Shown: piece after piece, positions 1-32,241 of the stretch
Numbering within the stretch: the stretch's first letter is position 1
How the letters are laid out: every line of letters begins with the position of its first letter
From: a virus
DNA: 32,241 nucleotides
Virus record (IMG/VR): IMGVR_UViG_3300034418_003905
Coordinates: 1-32,241 of that record
Strand: one strand, 5' to 3'
The notes under the pieces: model-generated
Seen by the model: only the letters and a program-made list of their open reading frames with translations
What the model was told of the DNA's origin: nothing
The model's database searches: none
Program-made: the position numbers and the translations under genes

Positions 1-3000
1 ACGGTCAAGTTGAGCCGAGAAAATTGAGCCGATGCCTCGAATGACATTACCCGCTTTAAAAGCTGCTCCGAGATTGTCTTTGACTCTGATTCGAATTTGG
101 TCACCCGCCTCAAGTGCGATTGGACCATCGAAGTGAGCGACCCCAGGTTGATCAATCGCGCCATAGTGTTGAGTGTCTAAGCGCCCGAACTGGTAAAGCG
201 ATGATCCATTCTTATCGAGATGAACCTGAAAATCGGTCGCTGAGCCGGTCGAGTAAAAGTAAATTGTCGTCTTAATCTCATAGATGCCTGACACCGGAGC
301 CGTGGCGATGCCGGTTGAATTGTCGTACCAGCTCCCAATGTCTACGAACTCTGTATCAAAGATCACGACATACTCAGAGATTGCCGTCGAGAGTGTAACG
401 TTTGCGCTCTGATACGCATTGAACTTTGGTGAGCCCATCTCCATCTTTACGTCATCCACAAAAGTCGTCGTTGACGCACCCGTGCGAGCAATAAAGACAC
501 GAGCAAAGCGAGCATTGGTTGGCGCTGCGATTGCTCCGCCGATGCGCAGCCAACTCGTTGTGAGTGCCTTGGTCTGCAACGTGTTATTGGAGACGGTGCC
601 TTTTGAATAAGTGTAGAAACTAATCGAGATCTCACCGCTCGGGCTGCCGCTCGTTTTCTTCATTGCGGCACTCACCAAGTAGATCTCACCCTCAGCGATT
701 GGGATGTAATCGCTCACGATGGCCGTTGATGCTCGCGTTGACGAACTCGGAAAGCGCAACGCGTAAAGCCCCTCAAGCACCAAGCTCTCACTCACGCGCT
801 CAAGATCGGTGTTCCAAGTCCCTGAACTCATCGCCCAGTTATCTGGTGGGTAGGCGTTAGCATGACTCCAAGCCTCAAAGCCACCATTTCGCAATCTATC
901 AAAGCCGGTCGTGACGGTCTCGCTCAACTGCTTCGGACCCACTGAGCCAAGTCGAGCAATATCAAGCGTGCCAGCGACGCCACTGCCATCGGTCTCAATG
1001 CTTGAGAGTGCAGCATTGCGCGGGCTTTGAATCCCGCCATCAGCAGTCGTCACAATTGCGCCGGTGACTGAATCGTAACCGATGCTAGTGATGGTGTCGG
1101 AAGGCAGCTCAATCTCTTCAACCGTTGAGACTGGCATCGATGAGCCGTCACCGCGCATCATGACACCACGACCAATCTCAATCTCAAAAGAGCTTGATTG
1201 GCTGCTGATGGTCGGTGGCAATGTAAAAGATGGTATGCCGCCACCCATGAAGGTCAGCGTTGGCCGCACCGGTATCAAAGCAACGTCAGGGATATCGACG
1301 ACATCGGCAAGCGATACTGCTGGTGCTGTTGAGAGCGAAACCTGACACGCGGTGAACTTCACTGAAGGCACGTCGCTCGTGATGTCGAATTCTTTCTCAA
1401 CGATCTCGAACTTCGCGGTGATGCTTATTGAGTCGTCATCGAAGTCAGCACTAGAGAGCAAGAGCTTGTCAGTGTCGAAGTCAACAAAGTCGCCAAGCTG
1501 AAGGTCAGCGTGACGCAGTGAAGTTCTAAACTCGACAGTGATGGCGCCGTTGGCGAAACGGGTCAAAGTCTCATCACAAAAGCGCTTGAGAATCGTGCAA
1601 TCAATAATCTCCATGCCATCGGCACGATCGGGATCATCAGCCTCATCGGTAGCAATTGTTGCGCCGCCAACATAACCGACAGTGTACCGAACATTTTGAA
1701 CTGCTTTAATCGAAGAGCCGCCAGCGCTGCCATCGTCATCAGTGTCAGCAAAGTGAGACACTCTCTCCATGACACCAGCATCATGATAGTTAATGCTAGC
1801 CGCTGCGGTGCTCTGGAAGATTGCGCCGGAGGTTGCACCAAGTTCAGCAATCGCAAACGTGGCAAGCCTAGAGCCGCTCAGCGCCGCGTTTGTCGCGGGA
1901 GTATGCAAATACCCATTGGTGGGAGATGCGGTCACTGCAATCGAACCTCGAAGTCCTGAGAAGCCCGTAATCATAGCGCCATCAGTCTCAAGCGTGAAGT
2001 TTGAGACGTTTGAGAATGCAACCGTTTTTGAGATCAAACTAACCGGCGCAAGATGCCCAGCGGTGACTTTGAGCGTTTTCTCTCCAAAGGTCGCCAGTGA
2101 TGTCGAATCTTTCCGCCGATATGTTGCCGATTGCTGAGAATTCTCGATGCCAACGATGATTTGATTGACTACACCACCAAAAGCGTTGGTTTGCTCAAGC
2201 TCATCATAATCATCAGCGGTCAATGTGCGAACACTGGCAGTCGTTGAATCGTAGAGCTTAGCCCTAATTGCACCAAGCTCATCGACGTAGAACGTAACAC
2301 CGCAAAATTGAGCGATCTCATCGATGATCGGACGTACTGAGACAAACTTCTCATCAGCCGTCGGTGCGTGTCCGATTGACTCGGTGGTGCCATAGTAGCG
2401 CCCGCTGCGACCAAGACCCACCGGTGACAATACGGTGTCGCTTCCATTTGCCTCGGCTTGTCTAGCCATGTCGGCCATGTGCTCATAGTAAGGCTTGATG
2501 CTCACCGACGTCATATTGAAGTGAGAAATTGAAGTTGAGTAATTAGTGGGGTCGAAGTCTGCCGCCGTCGTTGCAGTCGTCTCAGCACCGTACTCAATAA
2601 GCTGCTTGGCTACCTCAAGTGGATGCTTGCTGATGAATTTGCCTCCGAACTTGCGACGTTCGAGGTTGAAGATCTCATCAGCGAGTTTGATCACGATGAC
2701 ACCATTGCCAGGCAACACTTCAGTGATAACACCGACAAAGACCGTCAGGTAGTCACCGATAGCAACGCCATCAAAGCCGAGCTTGATGTAGACTTTGGCA
2801 TTGAAGAGCGTTTTGCGTCCTGCCCAGTTTCTAATCGTTCCATCATCAACGATCTCAAGTGTCATCGTGCCACTTGATGTCTTGCGAGTGATTGGATCAA
2901 CTTTGCGCGAGATGTTGGTGACGCTGCTCAAGATTGCGTTGTTCGACTCACTCAATCCGCTCAACATGCCGCCAAAGTTGTGAATGCGATATGTGCCCAA

Positions 3001-3096
3001 CGGATTTGCATCAAGATCAAAATCAGCTACCACGACAGGCGTTTGACCGCCTTGCGTTGCTGCGTCTTTGAATGATGCTGAGAGTGATAAAACCAT
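1..3096 (-). CDS. Tail-tip hub/fibre protein with C1q-like C-terminus (3' end off window)
   Basis: An open frame of 1032 codons runs from an ATG at 3096 to the left edge with no stop, so the protein is only just incomplete. It probably forms the tail tip and contacts the host. The first ~330 residues (starting MVLSLSASFKDAA) look like a tail-hub type module, including a segment LEVAKQLIEYGAE near residue 165. The middle is unrecognised. Residues ~737-888 (NGGFEAW at the start) resemble a carbohydrate-binding jelly-roll module. Residues ~895-1032 resemble a C1q/TNF-like domain, with the hallmark APVSGIYEI and a final F-S-A-Q-L. The start lies one base after the stop of the preceding gene (TAG-C-ATG), as in other junctions of this operon. 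The tail-tip role follows from position after the tape measure and from the domain order. Domain names come from recognising the sequence and have not been searched. Confidence 0.8.
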   Translation of the reverse strand, partial: MVLSLSASFKDAATQGGQTPVVVADFDLDANPLGTYRIHNFGGMLSGLSESNNAILSSVTNISRKVDPITRKTSSGTMTLEIVDDGTIRNWAGRKTLFNAKVYIKLGFDGVAIGDYLTVFVGVITEVLPGNGVIVIKLADEIFNLERRKFGGKFISKHPLEVAKQLIEYGAETTATTAADFDPTNYSTSISHFNMTSVSIKPYYEHMADMARQAEANGSDTVLSPVGLGRSGRYYGTTESIGHAPTADEKFVSVRPIIDEIAQFCGVTFYVDELGAIRAKLYDSTTASVRTLTADDYDELEQTNAFGGVVNQIIVGIENSQQSATYRRKDSTSLATFGEKTLKVTAGHLAPVSLISKTVAFSNVSNFTLETDGAMITGFSGLRGSIAVTASPTNGYLHTPATNAALSGSRLATFAIAELGATSGAIFQSTAAASINYHDAGVMERVSHFADTDDDGSAGGSSIKAVQNVRYTVGYVGGATIATDEADDPDRADGMEIIDCTILKRFCDETLTRFANGAITVEFRTSLRHADLQLGDFVDFDTDKLLLSSADFDDDSISITAKFEIVEKEFDITSDVPSVKFTACQVSLSTAPAVSLADVVDIPDVALIPVRPTLTFMGGGIPSFTLPPTISSQSSSFEIEIGRGVMMRGDGSSMPVSTVEEIELPSDTITSIGYDSVTGAIVTTADGGIQSPRNAALSSIETDGSGVAGTLDIARLGSVGPKQLSETVTTGFDRLRNGGFEAWSHANAYPPDNWAMSSGTWNTDLERVSESLVLEGLYALRFPSSSTRASTAIVSDYIPIAEGEIYLVSAAMKKTSGSPSGEISISFYTYSKGTVSNNTLQTKALTTSWLRIGGAIAAPTNARFARVFIARTGASTTTFVDDVKMEMGSPKFNAYQSANVTLSTAISEYVVIFDTEFVDIGSWYDNSTGIATAPVSGIYEIKTTIYFYSTGSATDFQVHLDKNGSSLYQFGRLDTQHYGAIDQPGVAHFDGPIALEAGDQIRIRVKDNLGAAFKAGNVIRGIGSIFSAQLDR

Positions 3097-3097
3097 G

Positions 3098-4051
3098 CTA
3101 CGATCCTGAGCTCTTGAATGGAGGCTGCTCAATCAATGACGTGCCAAAGACGCGCTCAATCGGTCCCTGTAGTGGCAACGATAATGTTGGCGACTCTGCA
3201 AGCATCAAATAAGCATCTGGCGATGATTGTGATGGATTCTCAATCCAGACAATTGGCTTGGTAAAGTCGTCAGAGTCATCAAAAGCCGCCTCAATCGCTG
3301 TCAGTTCGTTGGAGTCGGTGACGCTCTTGTTGATAGTTCTGAGTGCTTTGCCTCGGTGGTAGGTGTAGCGCTGCGTCAATCCGCTCTTGCTTGCAAAGTC
3401 ACTAACAAGCCCGGTCTCACTCTTGTCATCAAACGGCAAGTTGGGATTGTGCATCAACTGACGACGCTGGCCAACCCATACCTCACCGATGGCGGGCTTG
3501 ATTGTGGTGGTACCGTCTACATTTTGAAGCCTGACATTGAGCTTGCGATTGCTGGTGCCAAGTGTCACGCGCTGCGGATAACTCGGTTTTGCGCCGCTAG
3601 TGTCATAGAGGAAGGTGAAGACAAGCCGCGAGTTGTCACCCGATGCAACGGTGATGGTGTCCGAGATTGTTGTGGTGGTCGCTGCACCGGTAGCGACTAG
3701 ATCAACGGTGATATCTGGGCCGCTGGTGTCAACATCACCGAAGTTGTGGCCCATGATAACTACCGTGTCAAAAGTGACATCAGAGCCAAAGGCAAGACGG
3801 AATGCTGGCGATGATGGTGTTGACGTCATCTTTGACGCAACCGTAAGAGCTCCAATCCGGTCATAGGCTCTCACTCTTGCATTACTGATGGTGTCCTCAT
3901 CTGTCTCATCAGACCCGCCATTGTACGCATCAAACCAACCGCTTGATGCTTTGGTGATCTTGTCCGAGTTGTTAGTTGCCACCATCATCGGCTTGTCAGC
4001 GTCGTATGCGGTTTGCTCCCAGGTCGCCATGTCTGCCAGTGATACGCTCAT
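3098..4051 (-). CDS. Putative minor tail protein (tail-tip complex)
   Basis: A protein of 317 residues lying between the tape measure and the tail-tip hub gene. In siphophages this slot holds distal tail or minor tail proteins, and that is the main basis for the call. The sequence is rich in Ser, Thr and Asp, has no membrane segment, and contains a recognisable segment GEVWVGQRRQLMHNPNLPF around residue 205, of the kind seen in phage tail-tip proteins. No catalytic motif is visible. The ATG at 4051 overlaps the stop of the tape measure gene by one base (TGATG), which suggests translational coupling. The exact role (distal tail protein or another tip component) is not settled by the sequence. 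Confidence 0.7.
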   Translation of the reverse strand: MSVSLADMATWEQTAYDADKPMMVATNNSDKITKASSGWFDAYNGGSDETDEDTISNARVRAYDRIGALTVASKMTSTPSSPAFRLAFGSDVTFDTVVIMGHNFGDVDTSGPDITVDLVATGAATTTTISDTITVASGDNSRLVFTFLYDTSGAKPSYPQRVTLGTSNRKLNVRLQNVDGTTTIKPAIGEVWVGQRRQLMHNPNLPFDDKSETGLVSDFASKSGLTQRYTYHRGKALRTINKSVTDSNELTAIEAAFDDSDDFTKPIVWIENPSQSSPDAYLMLAESPTLSLPLQGPIERVFGTSLIEQPPFKSSGS

Positions 4052-20261: not shown

Positions 20262-20285
20262 ATAAAAAGCACCCCGAAACGGGGT
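20262..20285 (-). terminator. Intrinsic terminator, leftward
   Basis: On the minus strand a 6-base-pair stem (ACCCCG/CGGGGT) with a TTT loop at 20285-20271 is followed by GC and five Ts (20268-20264). It would stop leftward transcripts before the late operon. Confidence 0.7.
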
Positions 20286-20307: not shown

Positions 20308-20383
20308 CTCACTCGCGTTGGTACATGCTCTCCCCCCTCTTAAGAGGGGGGGAGAGTTATGTACCAAACGAATCGAGAGTGAG
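20308..20383. repeat. Nested inverted repeat (cruciform candidate)
   Basis: The core at 20320-20365 is a near-palindrome: GGTACAT, a pyrimidine run CTCTCCCCCC, TCTT, then the complementary purine run and ATGTACC. Differences are one G against AA and one extra C. Outer arms CTCACTC (20308-20314) and GAGTGAG (20377-20383) extend it. It starts and ends with the same GGTACA motif found in the array. Confidence 0.8.
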
Positions 20384-20550
20384 TGATTGGTACATTTAAC
20401 GGTACATAACGGTACATAACGAAGCATAACATTGCGGAATCAGTCATGATTTCAATTTGTACCCGCTTTGTACCGTTTTCCGATTGTCTGACAAAATCGG
20501 TACATTTTGACCCCAAAATCAGGGCCCCTGGTACATGGCAAAATTGTACC
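20320..20550. repeat. GGTACA/TGTACC motif array
   Basis: Ten copies of GGTACA in either orientation lie within 231 bases. Forward copies start at 20320, 20389, 20401, 20411, 20499 and 20530; reverse copies start at 20360, 20458, 20469 and 20545. Two are exact 10-base tandem units (GGTACATAAC at 20401 and 20411). The copies near 20499 and 20545 share a longer context, AAAATCGGTACA followed by TTTTG. Chance expectation is about 0.1 copies. The array looks like iterons or operators. Confidence 0.8.
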
Positions 20551-20555
20551 GATTT

Positions 20556-21044
20556 TCACCGTTTTCTGATGTTTGCCGGCATCGTCGTGAACCGACAATC
20601 GCCGAGCTTGCCAGCTTCAAAGATCACCAACATCGACGGAGCCGGGGCGGTCAATCCCGGCTCTCGTGTCTTTGGATCTATAAACTTGAGACGACCTTTC
20701 AGGAATACAATCTCCGACGCATTAAGCGCCCACTGATGAAAGGCCCGAGTGTCCGTGCGTGCGAACATCAGAATCACCGAACTATTGCCTAGCGTCGCCT
20801 CATAATGTGCCTTTTGTAGCCAGTCGGCCACTCGTGAATATGGTGGGTTGCACCACGTCCACGACTGCCACGGCAACGCCAATCCATCGTCTTGTTCGTC
20901 GTACCACTCCGAACACTTCGCGGACCATTCTTGTGCGCACGCATCAAGTTTGAAGTCATAACAACGAGAGAGACGATCAAAGAACTCTGGCGGGGTCGCC
21001 CAACAATCTTGACCACTGCTATGATGTAGTCCGCCCAATGTCAT
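20556..21044 (-). CDS. Phage DNA N6-adenine methyltransferase (Dam-like)
   Basis: A protein of 162 residues starting MTLGGLHHSSGQDCWATPPE. It has the compact layout of phage adenine methyltransferases: CWATPPEFFDRLSRCYDFKL, DACAQEWSAKCSEWYD and PWQSWTWCNPPYSRVADWL, where NPPYS is the catalytic DPPY-type motif. RLKFIDPKTREPGLTAPAPS follows near the end, also typical. No target domain is visible, so its site is unknown. The ATG at 21044 overlaps the primase-helicase stop by four bases; an in-frame start at 21080 is less likely. It is last in the replication transcript. Confidence 0.88.
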   Translation of the reverse strand: MTLGGLHHSSGQDCWATPPEFFDRLSRCYDFKLDACAQEWSAKCSEWYDEQDDGLALPWQSWTWCNPPYSRVADWLQKAHYEATLGNSSVILMFARTDTRAFHQWALNASEIVFLKGRLKFIDPKTREPGLTAPAPSMLVIFEAGKLGDCRFTTMPANIRKR

Positions 21045-23029
21045 CGTGCTAGCCTCATGAGATTCAACATTGACGCCCATGCTTCATCGACCACCGACCA
21101 ACCGTTGGTATTTGACTCGATGAGTTCTGCCGATTGCAAAACGTTGATCAATCGTCCCTTTGAGCTTGCCTTGATCTCTTGTTTCGCACTGCGTTCGGTC
21201 AAGTTTTCGACATCGATGAGCCATTGACGCAATTGATTGTTTGAGATCCACGGCAATCGATCCCCATCGAGTGGACATGAGTTGTCGTGCCAGGCTCTAG
21301 CAAATCGATCTTTCCGCGTTGCTAGTTTCTCATCGACTTTCTCCGCAGGCGTCACCTCCTCGACTATCGCCGATTTGACTGGCTCACCCTCGTCATCGAC
21401 CCACCCAGGGATTTCAATCGTGCGCAACTCCGCTTGATGACTCATCGCCAACTCCGCGTCTTTGCTTTTACGTTGTATGATCTCGATCGGTTTGTCGCCT
21501 TTCTTCGGCACCACCGACACTTCGATGTCCAACGCACCGCGCCACGCGCTAGAACCTCGCGCACGATGTTGAGCCTCATCACTTACGCCAGTGTGATGCA
21601 CTAACAACACTGAACAACCGAACGCATTCATCAAGTTTGCGCACGCATCCAACATCGTCTTTGCGTCTTGTGCCGAGTTCTCGTCACCCAATAGGAAACG
21701 ATGCAACGTGTCCACGATGATGAGCTTTGGCGGCTCTGCAAGACTTCGCAAAGATTCCGCCACTCGTTGATAACCCGCATCCGTGTTGAGATCGCATCCA
21801 CTTCGCGAGACCCAGATCTTGGTTGATTTCACTTTGTGATGATGTTTCCACGCTGCGACTCGTCCACGCAAACCATGATGACCCTCGCCAGCGAGATAGA
21901 CGACCGTGCCGGGCGTCACTTTGTGACCTCGCCAGTTCGTGACACCACCCGCGATGCGAAGTGCCCAGTCCAAGACGATGAATGTTTTTCCGCCACCCGA
22001 CGGGCCATGAACCATCATCAATGCGTTGTCTTGCAACCATCGTTTGACAAGCCACGAAATAGGCGCCGGCTGAGAACAAAACTCGTCACCCGGCACGAGC
22101 CAATCACTGATATCCGGAGTCAATAGAGTCATCAAGTCATGACCAGCATTATGATAATCGTTAGCATCACCCGATTCTGGAGGCATGACGACTTGCGCGC
22201 CATGACGCGCTGCGGCTTCGTGAGCTTTTGCGAAGCCAACGCCACCCGCGTCATTATCTGCAACGATGACAATTCGCTGATTTTGACCGTATGACTCACG
22301 AATTTGACCCGTCACGCTCGGCAAGTTGCTCGCAGAGAATGCCACGATCACCATCTCCTCGGTCACTTCGCGCACGGTTGCACCCGTTGCGAAGCCTTCG
22401 ACGATGTAAATCGTATCCGTCGGCATACCCAGTGCGAGATAACAACCGCCAACGCGTCCACCCTGATGATAAAGTTTGCCGCCGTTGCCATCGATGTACT
22501 GAAGAGAGCTGAGTTGATATTTCTCATCATAGAGCGGGACCATCAATCGCCCGTCTTGTGAGATGCGCACGCCGTGCGCTCTGACTCGCTTGCGCGTGAG
22601 ATATTGGTGATCATCACTTGCTGTTTGTGCATTGTCCCAAATGCGTTTGACCTCTTGCCTCGTGTTCTCTCGTTGACGCTCAAGCTCTTGACGTCGAATC
22701 GTCTTGGCTCTCTCGATGTTTGATTTGCTGCGGGCTATCTCTTGCGGCGTCAATTCTCTGCCGAGACTTGCTCGCCAGTCTTGTTTGATGTCTCGCCGCC
22801 AACAACCAAAGGCACCGCCCGGGATATCGTCGCCATGCGCGATGTACCACCCAGTCTTGCCGCCTTTCTCGTCGGCATCGAAACGATAAAGAGTTCCGTC
22901 AAGAACGATAACATCCGGTGCCTTGAGTCCCGCTTTCTCGATTGCTTGTCTCAGTTGCTTGTCGGGCGGCTCAACTGGACGCGCATCCGCGTTGAATTTG
23001 CCGCCAAAAATATCTATCAGATCAGTCAT
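21041..23029 (-). CDS. Primase-helicase (TOPRIM plus RecA-like ATPase)
   Basis: A 662-residue replication protein starting MTDLIDIFGGKFNADARPVE. The ATG at 23029 follows a run of Gs (GGGGGGAATCC); an upstream start at 23068 is not needed. Residues ~60-200 form the primase N-terminal part. TOPRIM motifs are IVEGFATG (E211) and ADNDAGG (D258, D260). The helicase domain has Walker A GPSGGGKT (342-349), Walker B LIIVDT (436-441), and LLVHHTG (475-481) after it, of the AAA_25/RepA type. The C-terminal ~100 residues (SNNQLRQWLIDVENLTERSA) look like a winged-helix domain. No zinc-binding primase motif is visible. The gene probably primes and unwinds phage DNA for host polymerase. Confidence 0.9.
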   Translation of the reverse strand: MTDLIDIFGGKFNADARPVEPPDKQLRQAIEKAGLKAPDVIVLDGTLYRFDADEKGGKTGWYIAHGDDIPGGAFGCWRRDIKQDWRASLGRELTPQEIARSKSNIERAKTIRRQELERQRENTRQEVKRIWDNAQTASDDHQYLTRKRVRAHGVRISQDGRLMVPLYDEKYQLSSLQYIDGNGGKLYHQGGRVGGCYLALGMPTDTIYIVEGFATGATVREVTEEMVIVAFSASNLPSVTGQIRESYGQNQRIVIVADNDAGGVGFAKAHEAAARHGAQVVMPPESGDANDYHNAGHDLMTLLTPDISDWLVPGDEFCSQPAPISWLVKRWLQDNALMMVHGPSGGGKTFIVLDWALRIAGGVTNWRGHKVTPGTVVYLAGEGHHGLRGRVAAWKHHHKVKSTKIWVSRSGCDLNTDAGYQRVAESLRSLAEPPKLIIVDTLHRFLLGDENSAQDAKTMLDACANLMNAFGCSVLLVHHTGVSDEAQHRARGSSAWRGALDIEVSVVPKKGDKPIEIIQRKSKDAELAMSHQAELRTIEIPGWVDDEGEPVKSAIVEEVTPAEKVDEKLATRKDRFARAWHDNSCPLDGDRLPWISNNQLRQWLIDVENLTERSAKQEIKASSKGRLINVLQSAELIESNTNGWSVVDEAWASMLNLMRLAR

Positions 23030-23072: not shown

Positions 23073-23261
23073 TCAATCCAAATTTTTCGTTTCTACTTCC
23101 TGCTCTAATTCTTTTAACCCAAGAACAAGTGCCTCTCGAATCACATCTGAACGCGATGCGCTCACGAGTGACTGCCGAACACTGCCCAGAACAAGAACCA
23201 GCGCATCGATTCTTGTGAGCATATCACCCGAACACTTGAACCCAACCAATTGATTTTTCAC
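23073..23261 (-). CDS. Ribbon-helix-helix type small regulator
   Basis: A 62-residue protein that starts at GTG (23261) with GGAGG eight bases upstream. The sequence contains KCSGDMLTRIDALVLVLG then ASRSDVIREALVLGLKELEQ, the strand-helix-helix pattern of CopG/Arc-like repressors. Longer in-frame starts up to 23420 would cross the divergent promoter and are rejected. It sits at the head of the leftward replication transcript and faces the early operon across a shared promoter region, so it probably controls both. Confidence 0.75.
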   Translation of the reverse strand: MKNQLVGFKCSGDMLTRIDALVLVLGSVRQSLVSASRSDVIREALVLGLKELEQEVETKNLD

Positions 23262-23401
23262 GTCTTTTCCTCCGAAGTACGTTTCCAATAAAAAAAATGT
23301 CTCCCTGGTTAAAACATACGTTAAAAGTCTTTGCAACCAACGTTGAGTTTTGAATAAATGGCTCATGTCGCAGTTACGCGACGCGAAACAAAGGAAACAA
23401 A
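23262..23401. promoter_or_regulatory. Divergent promoter region
   Basis: The palindromic hexamer TTGCAA (23331-23336) can be the -35 for both directions. Rightward, AATAAA at 23353-23358 is 16 bases away. Leftward, TTTAAC at 23313-23308 is 17 bases away. The perfect palindrome CAACGTTG (23338-23345) and a direct repeat GTTAAAA-CATAC-GTTAAAA (about 23308-23326) are candidate operator sites. The promoters are weak matches to the consensus, so this is a proposal. Confidence 0.5.
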
Positions 23402-23962
23402 ATGAGCCAGTCAAAACCAAACCCAGTACATACTTTCCATCCTACTCGCGACGAGCTTCTGGTGCTTGCGCGAGACTATAACGACAACGAAGGCATTTTG
23501 ATCATCGAACGTCTCGCACGATTGATGGACAAGCATTTCAGCGAATTTGAAACAATCAACAGCGCACGCACTGTCAAAAGCGTTTTGCGAAAATTCACTG
23601 ATGAGTTGGAGCATCAACTAAAGTGCCACTCATCGTTTGAAGACTCGCGAAATTATCTCAGTCCAGTCATGGAAGAGCTTCGCATCATGAAAGATTCGGC
23701 GATGGAGATTCGTTCCGCGTGGTGCAAACTCGAAGATTTTTGCTACTTCGAATTTGACGAACTCGCCAAGTTGGTTCTCGGCGAAATGCGAGTGCGCAAA
23801 TTCTTCCTCGCTCGTAGTCATGCTGACGATGATGGCAGCAATTTAAACGACTCTTGGACAATCGACACGCCGCACAGCGTGATCTTGCGTGATCTAAATC
23901 GCCAAGGTCATTGCATTGCTTCATTGGTTGAACACGGCGAAATCGTTTTGGATTCATACTGA
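23402..23962 (+). CDS. Early protein of unknown function
   Basis: A protein of 186 residues, the first of the rightward early operon, with AAAGGA eight bases before its ATG. It is helical and acidic in the middle (LARLMDKHFSEFETINSART, then RSAWCKLEDFCYFEFDELAK) and ends in SLVEHGEIVLDSY. It has no membrane segment and no recognisable enzyme motif. As the first early gene it could be a host takeover or counter-defence protein, but this is only position-based. The overlapping minus-strand frames here look like shadows. Confidence 0.7.
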   Translation: MSQSKPNPVHTFHPTRDELLVLARDYNDNEGILIIERLARLMDKHFSEFETINSARTVKSVLRKFTDELEHQLKCHSSFEDSRNYLSPVMEELRIMKDSAMEIRSAWCKLEDFCYFEFDELAKLVLGEMRVRKFFLARSHADDDGSNLNDSWTIDTPHSVILRDLNRQGHCIASLVEHGEIVLDSY

Positions 23963-29530: not shown

Positions 29531-29869
29531 TTACGGCTCATCATCCGGCGGTTCGATATTACCCGCCCATTCAGCCGCTTCCGGCTGCGTGTAGATAGTC
29601 CAGCCAGTTGCCCGGAATGCGTCTAGGTCACCACCGGCCATGAGCGTCGGGCTGTTGCACTTCCAAATAGTATGGACCCCATCGCTAGCACCCAAGGCAC
29701 AATTGGTTCGGTTGAACTCTGCCGACGTGCGGTAGGTTGGATGCACCGTCACCGGTGGTTGGTCCGGGTCTGGATAGGTTTCGTAGTCGTACCGAGTGAC
29801 CGCCGATGGCAAGTCATCGTCGAGGTTGCCGACTGGCACCAAAAGATATACCCAAGTTCCGCTACTCAT
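29531..29869 (-). CDS. Small protein of unknown function downstream of the tail fibre
   Basis: A 112-residue protein, MSSGTWVYLLVPVGNLDDDL at the start. It overlaps the tail fibre stop by eight bases (ATGAGTAG). The sequence reads as a soluble beta-rich protein with two cysteines (NCALGASDGVHTIWKCNS). It may be a fibre assembly or accessory protein because of its place, but no family is recognised. Confidence 0.7.
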   Translation of the reverse strand: MSSGTWVYLLVPVGNLDDDLPSAVTRYDYETYPDPDQPPVTVHPTYRTSAEFNRTNCALGASDGVHTIWKCNSPTLMAGGDLDAFRATGWTIYTQPEAAEWAGNIEPPDDEP

Positions 29870-32241
29870 TTGCTAATCCTTTTATGAGACGAAGGTCTGA
29901 TCGATAGATTTGTTCTATTTCGTTGTCGCTCAAGGTCACTTGATAGAATTTAGGACAAGCGATCGGACCATTCATTTCATTGGCCCCTGACGTCACGTAG
30001 TCCCCGAAACGCAATGCCGTTGCGTTAGGTACGCCCGCCAAGGTTGTCGCTGTGCTGGTAGAGTCTAGAACGCCATCAAGAAACAGCTTGATTGTAGTGG
30101 TCGCGCCGCCACCATAGTCAACGGTAAACGCGAAATGATGCCAGTCCGAGTCCGAGATTGTGCCAGTTGTATTGGGGTTGGCTCTAGCCGATACGCCATC
30201 GCCTAACTCAAAATACACTTTATTTGCTGAGTTTAAGTAAACCGCGAATCGATGTTGAGTCCCTGAGCCATAATCGTCATTGATGAAAATCGAAGAGAAC
30301 TCTCCAAGCTTTTGCAGTCTGAAGAAACAAGAGAACGCGCCGCCATTTGCGAAACTTGGAAGGAATGCCGAATCTTTAGCGGAGAGCGCATACTCGTTAG
30401 CAGCATTAGAGACCGCACCAAGATTCAAAACGCTCACACCCTTCCGCTTCATCGAGAAGTCGCCAACGATAGTCGAGCCGCTGGCGTTTTCGGGGAAGGA
30501 TGCGAGCCCCGGCGCAATGGTGCCAACCGTCACGGCACCAGAGACACCGTTTCCGCTGTAATCCTTGAAGCTAGTTAGGTCGTCACACTTCCACCAAGCC
30601 TGAAGATTAGCCGATGCAATTCCGGACACGTCGCCAGGAATGCCAGAGTTGTATACTTGTGTCACTTCAGAATCACTAAGGACCGTGTTCCAGGCCGCTG
30701 TATCCACCGGTATAAAATGACAAACTCCACCATAAGGGCCATCACCCCAACGACCGCCGGAAAGTTTATTATCTCCGAAGCTCCAAGTTGTCCTTGACCC
30801 ACTAAAGGATCTTGCGCTCACTGTTTTCTTTTCGCCATTGATCCAAAGCTGCCAATAAGGAGAAGTCGCCAAGGTTGTGATAACAACGTGTTGCAATTTG
30901 CCTAGCTCAAAGGTGTGATTATAACGGACGCTGACCGACCCACCCCCATTTGATAACCAGATATTTGGCGTACCGTGTCCAGAGTCGTTATCGTAAACAA
31001 TTTCCAACATATCCCCGCCTGGATACTTACCAAGGATAAAGATCGGGTTGTAATCACCAGAAGTAGTACCGGGTAGTTCTTGCATGATAAACCACCCGGA
31101 AAGCGTCCCTTGGTTTGTAAAGGGCGTGCCAGACATAACGTCGCTTCTGTAGTAAGTATTATTGGTCGTGTCTTGCATACTGATACGACTCGCACTCTGC
31201 TGCAATCCAAGTTGCGGACACGGTACGGGTTGAGCGAACTCCATGGAGCATGAACCAATATCTTCCACCGGTTCGCCATCTGCGCCCATATCTTGGAAGT
31301 ATCGGCCGCCGGTGCCGCCGGTATCGTTGTAATCGCTTAGTGGGTAGTACCGTCGCAGATTGCTAGCACTAACGCCGGTAGGTAGGACTTGCTCGGGGTT
31401 GTGGTATAGCTCGCGAGCTTGAGCGTCGGTGAATTTCATATTGAAAACTTTGACGCCTGCTATTAACTGGTTCTGATAGCCGTGAGACGTCCCGCCAATG
31501 TCGAAAGTGGTGGTATCCCAAATGACACCTACAGCGCCAGGGCTGTCGTATTTTTCACCGTTGAGATACAAGATCGTAGTGTTTAGGGACGTTGTACCAT
31601 TTCCATCTAAGACGAAAACAACATGGTGCCATTGATTCAAAGGAAGGCTCGATAAAGTGAATCCCAGCCTATTTCCAGAAGTAATTTCCCCGGCGATGTA
31701 AAAACTGCTTGAAGACATAAACGCAATGAATCGATCAACGGCAGTAGCACCACCACCGAAGTTGTGAATAATCCGCCCGGGTCCGCCATCTCGCTGATAC
31801 ATCCAAAATGAGACGGTGCAAGCTGTGGCGGTTGCGTCTGTAAAGTTGGCTCCCTGTAATCGATCAACCGAACCGTCTTGGTCAAGGGCTCTCCCCGTAT
31901 ACACTCGCGCCATTGCCACGCCGCGTGCCAAATCGAGACCGCGTGGGAGTTGGGGGCGGTTGACGGTGAAGGATGGGGAGCCAAAGGCAGTTAAGTCATC
32001 GCCGCTTGCGCCAGTGTCAACATAGTCAGTTTCGAGTTTGTAACGGTGTCGCAGGTTGGATGCACTAAGACCCGTCGGGATAGTCAAGCCTGGGTTGTTG
32101 TAAATCTCCCGGACTTGATCTTGCGTTAAAACTTGATCGTAGATCCTAACATCCGAGACAAGGCCATCATGGTAATGAGTATTTCCTAGACTATAGCGAC
32201 CAAGCTCGAAATCACCATTGGTGATATTTGGCGACGCTGTA
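29862..32241 (-). CDS. Multi-LamG tail fibre / receptor-binding protein (5' end off window)
   Basis: An open frame runs from a TAG at 29864-29862 to the right edge; the real start lies outside. The visible part (792 residues) has three complete LamG/concanavalin-like modules and the last part of another. Each ends in a similar helix, e.g. LTQDQVREIYNNPG, FTDAQARELYHNP, LSDSEVTQVYNSG and LSDNEIEQIYRS, and the next starts with a repeated linker such as PTGLSASNLRHRY or PTGVSASNLRRYY, then GIASANLQAWW. Module starts are near 32080, 31380 and 30629, about 230-257 residues apart. LamG modules bind sugars or proteins, so a receptor-binding fibre is likely. A TTG at 32087 is only an internal codon of the longer frame. 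Confidence 0.85.
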   Translation of the reverse strand, partial: TASPNITNGDFELGRYSLGNTHYHDGLVSDVRIYDQVLTQDQVREIYNNPGLTIPTGLSASNLRHRYKLETDYVDTGASGDDLTAFGSPSFTVNRPQLPRGLDLARGVAMARVYTGRALDQDGSVDRLQGANFTDATATACTVSFWMYQRDGGPGRIIHNFGGGATAVDRFIAFMSSSSFYIAGEITSGNRLGFTLSSLPLNQWHHVVFVLDGNGTTSLNTTILYLNGEKYDSPGAVGVIWDTTTFDIGGTSHGYQNQLIAGVKVFNMKFTDAQARELYHNPEQVLPTGVSASNLRRYYPLSDYNDTGGTGGRYFQDMGADGEPVEDIGSCSMEFAQPVPCPQLGLQQSASRISMQDTTNNTYYRSDVMSGTPFTNQGTLSGWFIMQELPGTTSGDYNPIFILGKYPGGDMLEIVYDNDSGHGTPNIWLSNGGGSVSVRYNHTFELGKLQHVVITTLATSPYWQLWINGEKKTVSARSFSGSRTTWSFGDNKLSGGRWGDGPYGGVCHFIPVDTAAWNTVLSDSEVTQVYNSGIPGDVSGIASANLQAWWKCDDLTSFKDYSGNGVSGAVTVGTIAPGLASFPENASGSTIVGDFSMKRKGVSVLNLGAVSNAANEYALSAKDSAFLPSFANGGAFSCFFRLQKLGEFSSIFINDDYGSGTQHRFAVYLNSANKVYFELGDGVSARANPNTTGTISDSDWHHFAFTVDYGGGATTTIKLFLDGVLDSTSTATTLAGVPNATALRFGDYVTSGANEMNGPIACPKFYQVTLSDNEIEQIYRSDLRLIKGLANE

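Follow-up and report, generated by a model that had tools for sequence, protein, structure and literature searches.

Initiator-iteron modules that follow the logic considered here are already known. In lambdoid O/ori and SaPI Rep/ori, the DNA-binding domain of the initiator and the iterons pair type-specifically, and the lambda iterons sit inside the O gene. Known initiator-origin pairing is spread over few systems with few specificities each. In the RepA/ori of PLE satellites of Vibrio cholerae, the iterons vary in step with the DNA-binding domain and both are swapped as a unit, the remainder of the protein staying conserved; experiments showed cognate pairing of the RepA domain with the iterons, and a phage nuclease targeting the origin is thought to drive the exchange (PMC8263062). 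RSF1010 oriV, served by RepC, RepA and RepB', contains iterons and the short stem-loops ssiA and ssiB, its RepA being a hexameric helicase, while P4 alpha combines a Toprim-type primase, a helicase and a C-terminal winged helix that binds the origin repeats in one protein; the pRN1 origin has a stem-loop directly 3' of a primase-helicase gene, which is conserved in structure and not in sequence, and the protein carries a C-terminal winged helix (PMC4234260).

Here, we analysed an array of GGTACA hexamers in a phage DNA stretch of 32,241 bp (the window, i.e. the whole stretch analysed), in which a cluster of short repeats lies in non-coding DNA beside a presumed initiator gene, one of the features by which iteron origins are recognised. 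Sequence comparison with relatives leads us to propose that the array is very probably a phage iteron origin bound by the C-terminal domain of the phage's own primase-helicase. Among open-licence papers, we found no description of origins of this primase-helicase family.

GGTACA occurs 17 times in the window, compared to 4.7 copies expected from dinucleotide shuffles (shuffle maximum 11). An earlier sequence-only reading had described ten copies in both orientations within 231 bp, and this clustering is real: the densest cluster of any hexamer per 231 bp in 60 second-order Markov windows comprised 4-5 copies, simulations reached at most five, and the second-densest unrelated hexamer cluster of the real window has five as well. 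The same reading had mentioned at least one stray copy elsewhere; there are seven. The finer features that it had described, namely exact tandem units, a near-palindrome with GGTACA at both ends and a longer palindromic context shared by two of the copies, were all found again (Table 1). Within the array region, A+T content peaks in the iteron-free spacer (68% over 40 bp), which might serve as a candidate melting region; across the family, the richest 40 bp reach 66% A+T in arrays and 62% in flanks, the array lying only slightly above the flank. The ATTGTCAGACAAT palindrome is present in two copies each in the close relatives L003 and L004 and in one imperfect copy in the window. Since it stays constant while the iterons change, another protein may bind it.

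Table 1 Features of the array region and the primase-helicase gene in the window.
Feature	Position	Strand	Basis or remark
Terminator-like hairpin and T-run, past the array	20271..20285	-	Conserved in L003, L004, L008-L010
Iteron array, ten GGTACA	20320..20550	both	Motif count, simulation, position and layout in relatives
GGTACA, n = 6	20320, 20389, 20401, 20411, 20499, 20530	+	
GGTACA, n = 4	20360, 20458, 20469, 20545	-	
46-bp near-palindrome, GGTACAT at ends	20320..20365		Pyrimidine/purine arms 20328-20337/20347-20356
CTTAAG apex of the near-palindrome	20339-20344		
Two exact tandem 10-bp units TAACGGTACA	20397..20416	+	20397-20406, 20407-20416
Iteron-free spacer separating two iteron groups	20417..20457		
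Imperfect palindrome CGATTGTCTGACAAAATCGG	20481..20500		
Inverted iteron pair (20499, 20545) in extended 16-nt arms	20493..20556		Arms 20493-20508/20541-20556, 94% complementary
GGGGTCAAAA, GGG(G)(T)CAAA copy on the primase strand	20505..20514	-	
Dam-type DNA adenine methylase gene	20556..21080	-	
Primase-helicase gene, 675 aa	21041..23068	-	Early operon
C-terminal domain, residues 574-675, proposed iteron reader	21044..21349	-	AlphaFold2; differs with motif
Recognition-helix segment LTERSAKQ.., residues 623-640	21149..21202	-	
Q630	21179-21181		

On the minus strand, the genes for primase-helicase and Dam are followed by the array, the terminator-like hairpin and the ParB-like, ATPase-like, terminase, portal and head genes. 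The array was thus correctly placed between replication and late genes, with Dam and the primase-helicase on one side and the ParB-like protein, terminase and portal on the other. Dam separates primase and array in the window, L003 and L005, but not in L004, L006 and L008-L010. Recombination genes run in the opposite direction from ~23.4 kb, and the cumulative GC-skew minimum near 23.5 kb coincides with this switch of transcription direction. A skew change at 20.4 kb, which had been suggested as a sign of an origin, was not found; the skew shows no turn there, and we rejected it as support for an origin at this position. As side observations, an RHH protein gene (23073-23420) lies upstream of the primase, where annotated relatives have a Cro/XRE-type regulator instead, and long tail-fibre-like open frames with Laminin_G_3 repeats (minus strand, 1-3132 and 29862-32240) leave the contig at both ends. 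The two terminal frames do not join directly; since both are cut off by the contig ends, the record may represent only part of a genome or a permuted one.

The position of the array bears on what it might otherwise be. The multi-site operator also considered in the sequence-only reading is not favoured, because a search within the array found no promoter-like site and the array is located 3' of the genes and ahead of the terminator. It is likewise unlikely that the C-terminal domain binds the array as a control site limiting its own transcription or activity, with replication starting elsewhere. P4 has a second repeat region, crr, and the terminator-like hairpin does come after the array; against such a control site stand the same 3' location without promoter-like site, the lack of any GGTACA near the divergent promoter region at ~23.4 kb in a count over the window, and the hairpin and the DnaA boxes of relatives described below, which fit an origin better. 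The array could also be an RNA element, located in the 3' untranslated part of the early mRNA, since hairpin and terminator would be transcribed. We consider this exceedingly improbable, given that the iterons are tandem and inverted hexamers of variable number and that Rfam returned only a chance microRNA match of 23.9 bits, far below the gathering score of 82 bits, and hence no known RNA family at the array.

To collect relatives, primase-helicase scans (80 loci) were extended by genome contigs and four further viral scans, which after removal of duplicates gave 172 genes with a stop codon, 164 of them with sufficient downstream DNA. Applying a motif-blind search for at least five copies of one hexamer per 260 bp within 1.5 kb downstream of the primase-helicase gene, we found an array in 157 of these 164 unique relatives, compared to 9 of 164 shuffles; control regions upstream of the gene mostly contained 3-5 copies. 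The arrays share a common layout and the same upstream gene, while the hexamer varies: GGTACA, GGGACA, GGGGCA, GGTAAC, (G/C)GGAAC, CGTAAC, CGTACC, CGGACC, GGGTCA, GGGGGC and GGGTAC, with TGACCC, GCCCCC and others listed as well. Over 150 related phages have so far yielded 11 or more versions. A conserved cluster in related phages had been named as a test, and the cluster is indeed conserved, but the exact motif is not. To take the lack of a cluster of the same motif as a refutation would be misleading, since the cluster is kept while the motif itself changes. The downstream hexamer scan found no clear array in L011, L016, L145 and L241, and some of its top hexamers may be other repeats (e.g. 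in L133). In that locus, CTGGGC occurs 25 times in 260 bp at ~690 bp beyond the primase stop, probably unrelated to iterons. GCCAGA repeats (12-22 copies), distinct from the iterons, were noticed upstream of the primase gene in L030 (~1650-2150) and L042 (~3400-3700). In L008, L009 and L010, the initial ~20 codons of a primase-like gene start give way to ~400 bp interrupted by stops, after which the gene begins again with a full start; this looks like a remnant left by an insertion or a partial replacement.

Arrays were also present in cultured phages, with six copies of GGGACA in CGphi29, 12-13 copies of GGTTCA, a motif missing from the reference set, in XX1924 and PB15, and 11 copies of GGTACA in 1N2-2. 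The metagenomic ct3Oc712 has eight copies of GGGACA, and ct76p945, checked beside the cultured phages, has no hexamer array.

Further elements recur at the arrays. A perfect stem of at least seven pairs was found in 124 of 150 arrays (18.8 in shuffles), the longest stem of some arrays being another inverted repeat and not the apex hairpin. The hairpin apex in most arrays is CTTTAG, CTATAG or CTTAAG (CTWWAG), and in nearly all groups the detected apex hairpin sits between convergent iterons (>HP<), which fixes a common reading frame for the hexamers. In this frame, the GGTACA label of L105-L112 turned out to be an artefact; hairpin orientation gives TGTACC, which is near CGTACC and matches what their helix suggests. 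A third conserved element, GGG(G)(T)CAAA, is strand-biased: 54 of 100 arrays carry it on the gene strand and one on the other (shuffles 5.2). Exact DnaA boxes numbered 108 near 100 arrays compared to 0.65 in shuffles and were distributed by group (GGTAAC 22/24, (G/C)GGAAC 9/12, GGGGGC 9/14 and GGGTCA 5/19 arrays); none was found at the window array or in the CGTACC, CGGACC and GGGACA groups. Another 52 exact boxes were noted in 82 loci of the GGTAAC, (G/C)GGAAC, GGGGGC and GGGTCA groups, 500-900 bp beyond the array.

The primase-helicase comprises a Toprim domain (residues 220-308; match to Toprim_3), a helicase domain of the RSF1010-RepA type (329-496; match to AAA_25) and a predicted C-terminal winged helix, and the full-length protein is similar to T7 gp4 and RSF1010 RepA. 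The helicase domain matches RSF1010 RepA both by sequence (1g8y, E 7.4e-13) and by fold. For the C-terminal domain, the AlphaFold2 model has a mean pLDDT of 91.4 and a helix-strand order that fits a winged helix; S636 and K637 lie in the loop after the recognition helix. Foldseek matches were mostly winged-helix regulators and weak (best E 0.11), and the P4 origin domain was not among the fold matches listed. By sequence, the domain matched no solved structure, and a search for plasmid relatives found none. In ct3Oc712, a Prim-Pol replaces Toprim, and helicase, C-terminal domain and an array with hairpin are retained.

But which protein would read the hexamers? We predicted the motif of each array by leave-one-out nearest neighbour, limiting neighbours by the identity of the enzyme body. 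When only neighbours of less than 90% body identity were used, the 18-residue helix segment predicted the motif in 86%, the C-terminal domain in 75% and the body in 42% of cases; below 75% identity, the values were 76%, 49% and 10%. For cultured phages with new helix sequences, the helix-based prediction was correct in one of five. Mapped onto a tree of the enzyme body, the motif must have changed 37 times or more. Among 27 disjoint pairs that differ in motif and whose bodies are on average 94% identical, 48% of positions in residues 611-635 differ, compared to 5% among 52 pairs sharing a motif. L017 and L080 have the same DNA as far as the C-terminal coding part and are ~99% identical again past the array, whereas C-terminal part and array are both replaced (GGTAAC/GGGGGC). 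L024 and L019 have similar arrays with alignable flanks, T being changed to G in most copies (CGTACC/CGGACC) alongside a change of the loop residues from ST to YP. Residues 636 and 637 differ in all four CGTACC/CGGACC pairs, and residues 630, 636 and 637 in 84 of 84 close GGTAAC/(G/C)GGAAC pairs. Among 7 tree-independent pairs, Q630 went with T at hexamer position 3 in 6-7, and the opposite was never seen (p ~0.016, at most 7 events); arrays showing the combination are those of GGTAAC, those of GGTACA of the window type and a single one of CGTAAC. At residue 630, V, K, N or S accompany G; L and M are also found with T, and other groups have N or R. In these sequence comparisons, the motif tracks the C-terminal domain, above all residues 630, 636 and 637.

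As the domain adjoins the array, both could be exchanged together even without contact. Motif and domain might then co-travel merely as DNA neighbours, jointly transferred by recombination of adjoining DNA, and the array would serve some other phage protein. We regard this as very unlikely, since (i) motif prediction is more accurate from the helix segment than from the complete C-terminal domain, (ii) three residues separate GGTAAC from (G/C)GGAAC arrays, (iii) the match survives ~0.5 kb of Dam in the window and L003 and ~1 kb in L030, and (iv) domains that have diverged elsewhere but retain similar helices are paired with one and the same motif (e.g. L146/L232, L134/L054). The RHH and ParB-like proteins, proposed as binders by the sequence-only reading, would make the array a partition or operator site. 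The window encodes both, but the RHH protein type does not follow the motif: the RHH proteins of L003 and L004 are near-identical although the motifs differ, that of L006 is of another type although its motif equals that of L003. RHH homologues went undetected in 23 family phages, only 4 of which had a ParB-like one, and arrays are present in family members without these proteins. Both were rejected as readers, and we give such a site almost no credence.

We thus return to an iteron origin read by the primase-helicase itself. The suggestion of origin iterons made in the sequence-only reading is well supported by conservation in relatives, co-variation with a replication protein, the conserved hairpin and, in many relatives, DnaA boxes. 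Compared across relatives, the array is conserved, co-varies with the C-terminal domain and is exchanged jointly with it; binding and origin activity would then follow a scheme that we infer from the architecture and from RSF1010, P4 and pRN1 (PMC4234260). Early transcription would provide the primase-helicase, and the C-terminal winged helices of several copies would read the GGTACA hexamers, with the base at hexamer position 3 set by residue 630 of the recognition helix and residues 636-637 of the next loop. Once bound, these proteins may assemble helicase rings of the RSF1010-RepA type there and melt the duplex. This would expose the CTWWAG-apex hairpin between convergent iterons in single-stranded form, and the hairpin would presumably act in replication, either as the place where the Toprim primase lays down the first primers or as an aid to ring loading.

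With 11 or more natural hexamer specificities, many of which separate near-identical proteins, the window family makes it directly testable how DNA recognition changes without loss of function. Motif and reader domain can be used as a pair to work out DNA recognition by such proteins, the array predicts origins in hundreds of unannotated phage genomes, including those of cultured Alteromonas, Idiomarinaceae and Salicola phages, and the family supplies candidate orthogonal origin/initiator pairs. Tentatively, and with somewhat less than even confidence, we suggest that a large, mostly uncultured phage group carries a self-contained origin cassette of reader domain, hexamer iterons and CTWWAG hairpin, which is repeatedly exchanged between genomes and can also drift through changes of a few residues and bases. 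A simple code linking residues to bases may underlie the cassette, and its diversity may stem from escape from origin-recognising rivals. That an origin-targeting rival is the driver here is speculation by analogy with PLE.

How does this locus compare with the known systems? Lambdoid O and SaPI Rep are unrelated to the window primase-helicase. The pRN1 origin shares a stem-loop 3' of a primase-helicase gene and a C-terminal winged helix, but differs in its archaeo-eukaryotic primase, SF3 helicase and lack of iterons. Like P4 alpha, the window protein joins primase, helicase and a predicted C-terminal winged helix (with weak fold matches); the helicase of P4 alpha is of the SF3 type, whereas that of the window is not, having a RepA-type RecA fold (AAA_25/RepA). 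RSF1010 resembles the window in its iterons with a stem-loop and its RepA-type hexameric helicase, the conserved CTWWAG hairpin at the arrays being a candidate counterpart of its single-strand initiation hairpins. It employs three proteins, while in the window separate RepC iteron-binding and RepB' primase proteins are lacking and primase, helicase and presumed iteron reader form one 675-aa protein, with a Toprim primase, hexamer motifs and many specificities. Among experimental precedents, PLE comes closest as regards the joint exchange of iterons and reader domain, an exchange seen by sequence comparison in the family analysed here. PLE involves a separate protein family with ~30-bp iterons and two reported specificities, compared to 6-bp motifs, at least 11 specificities and closely related point-level changes in the window family.
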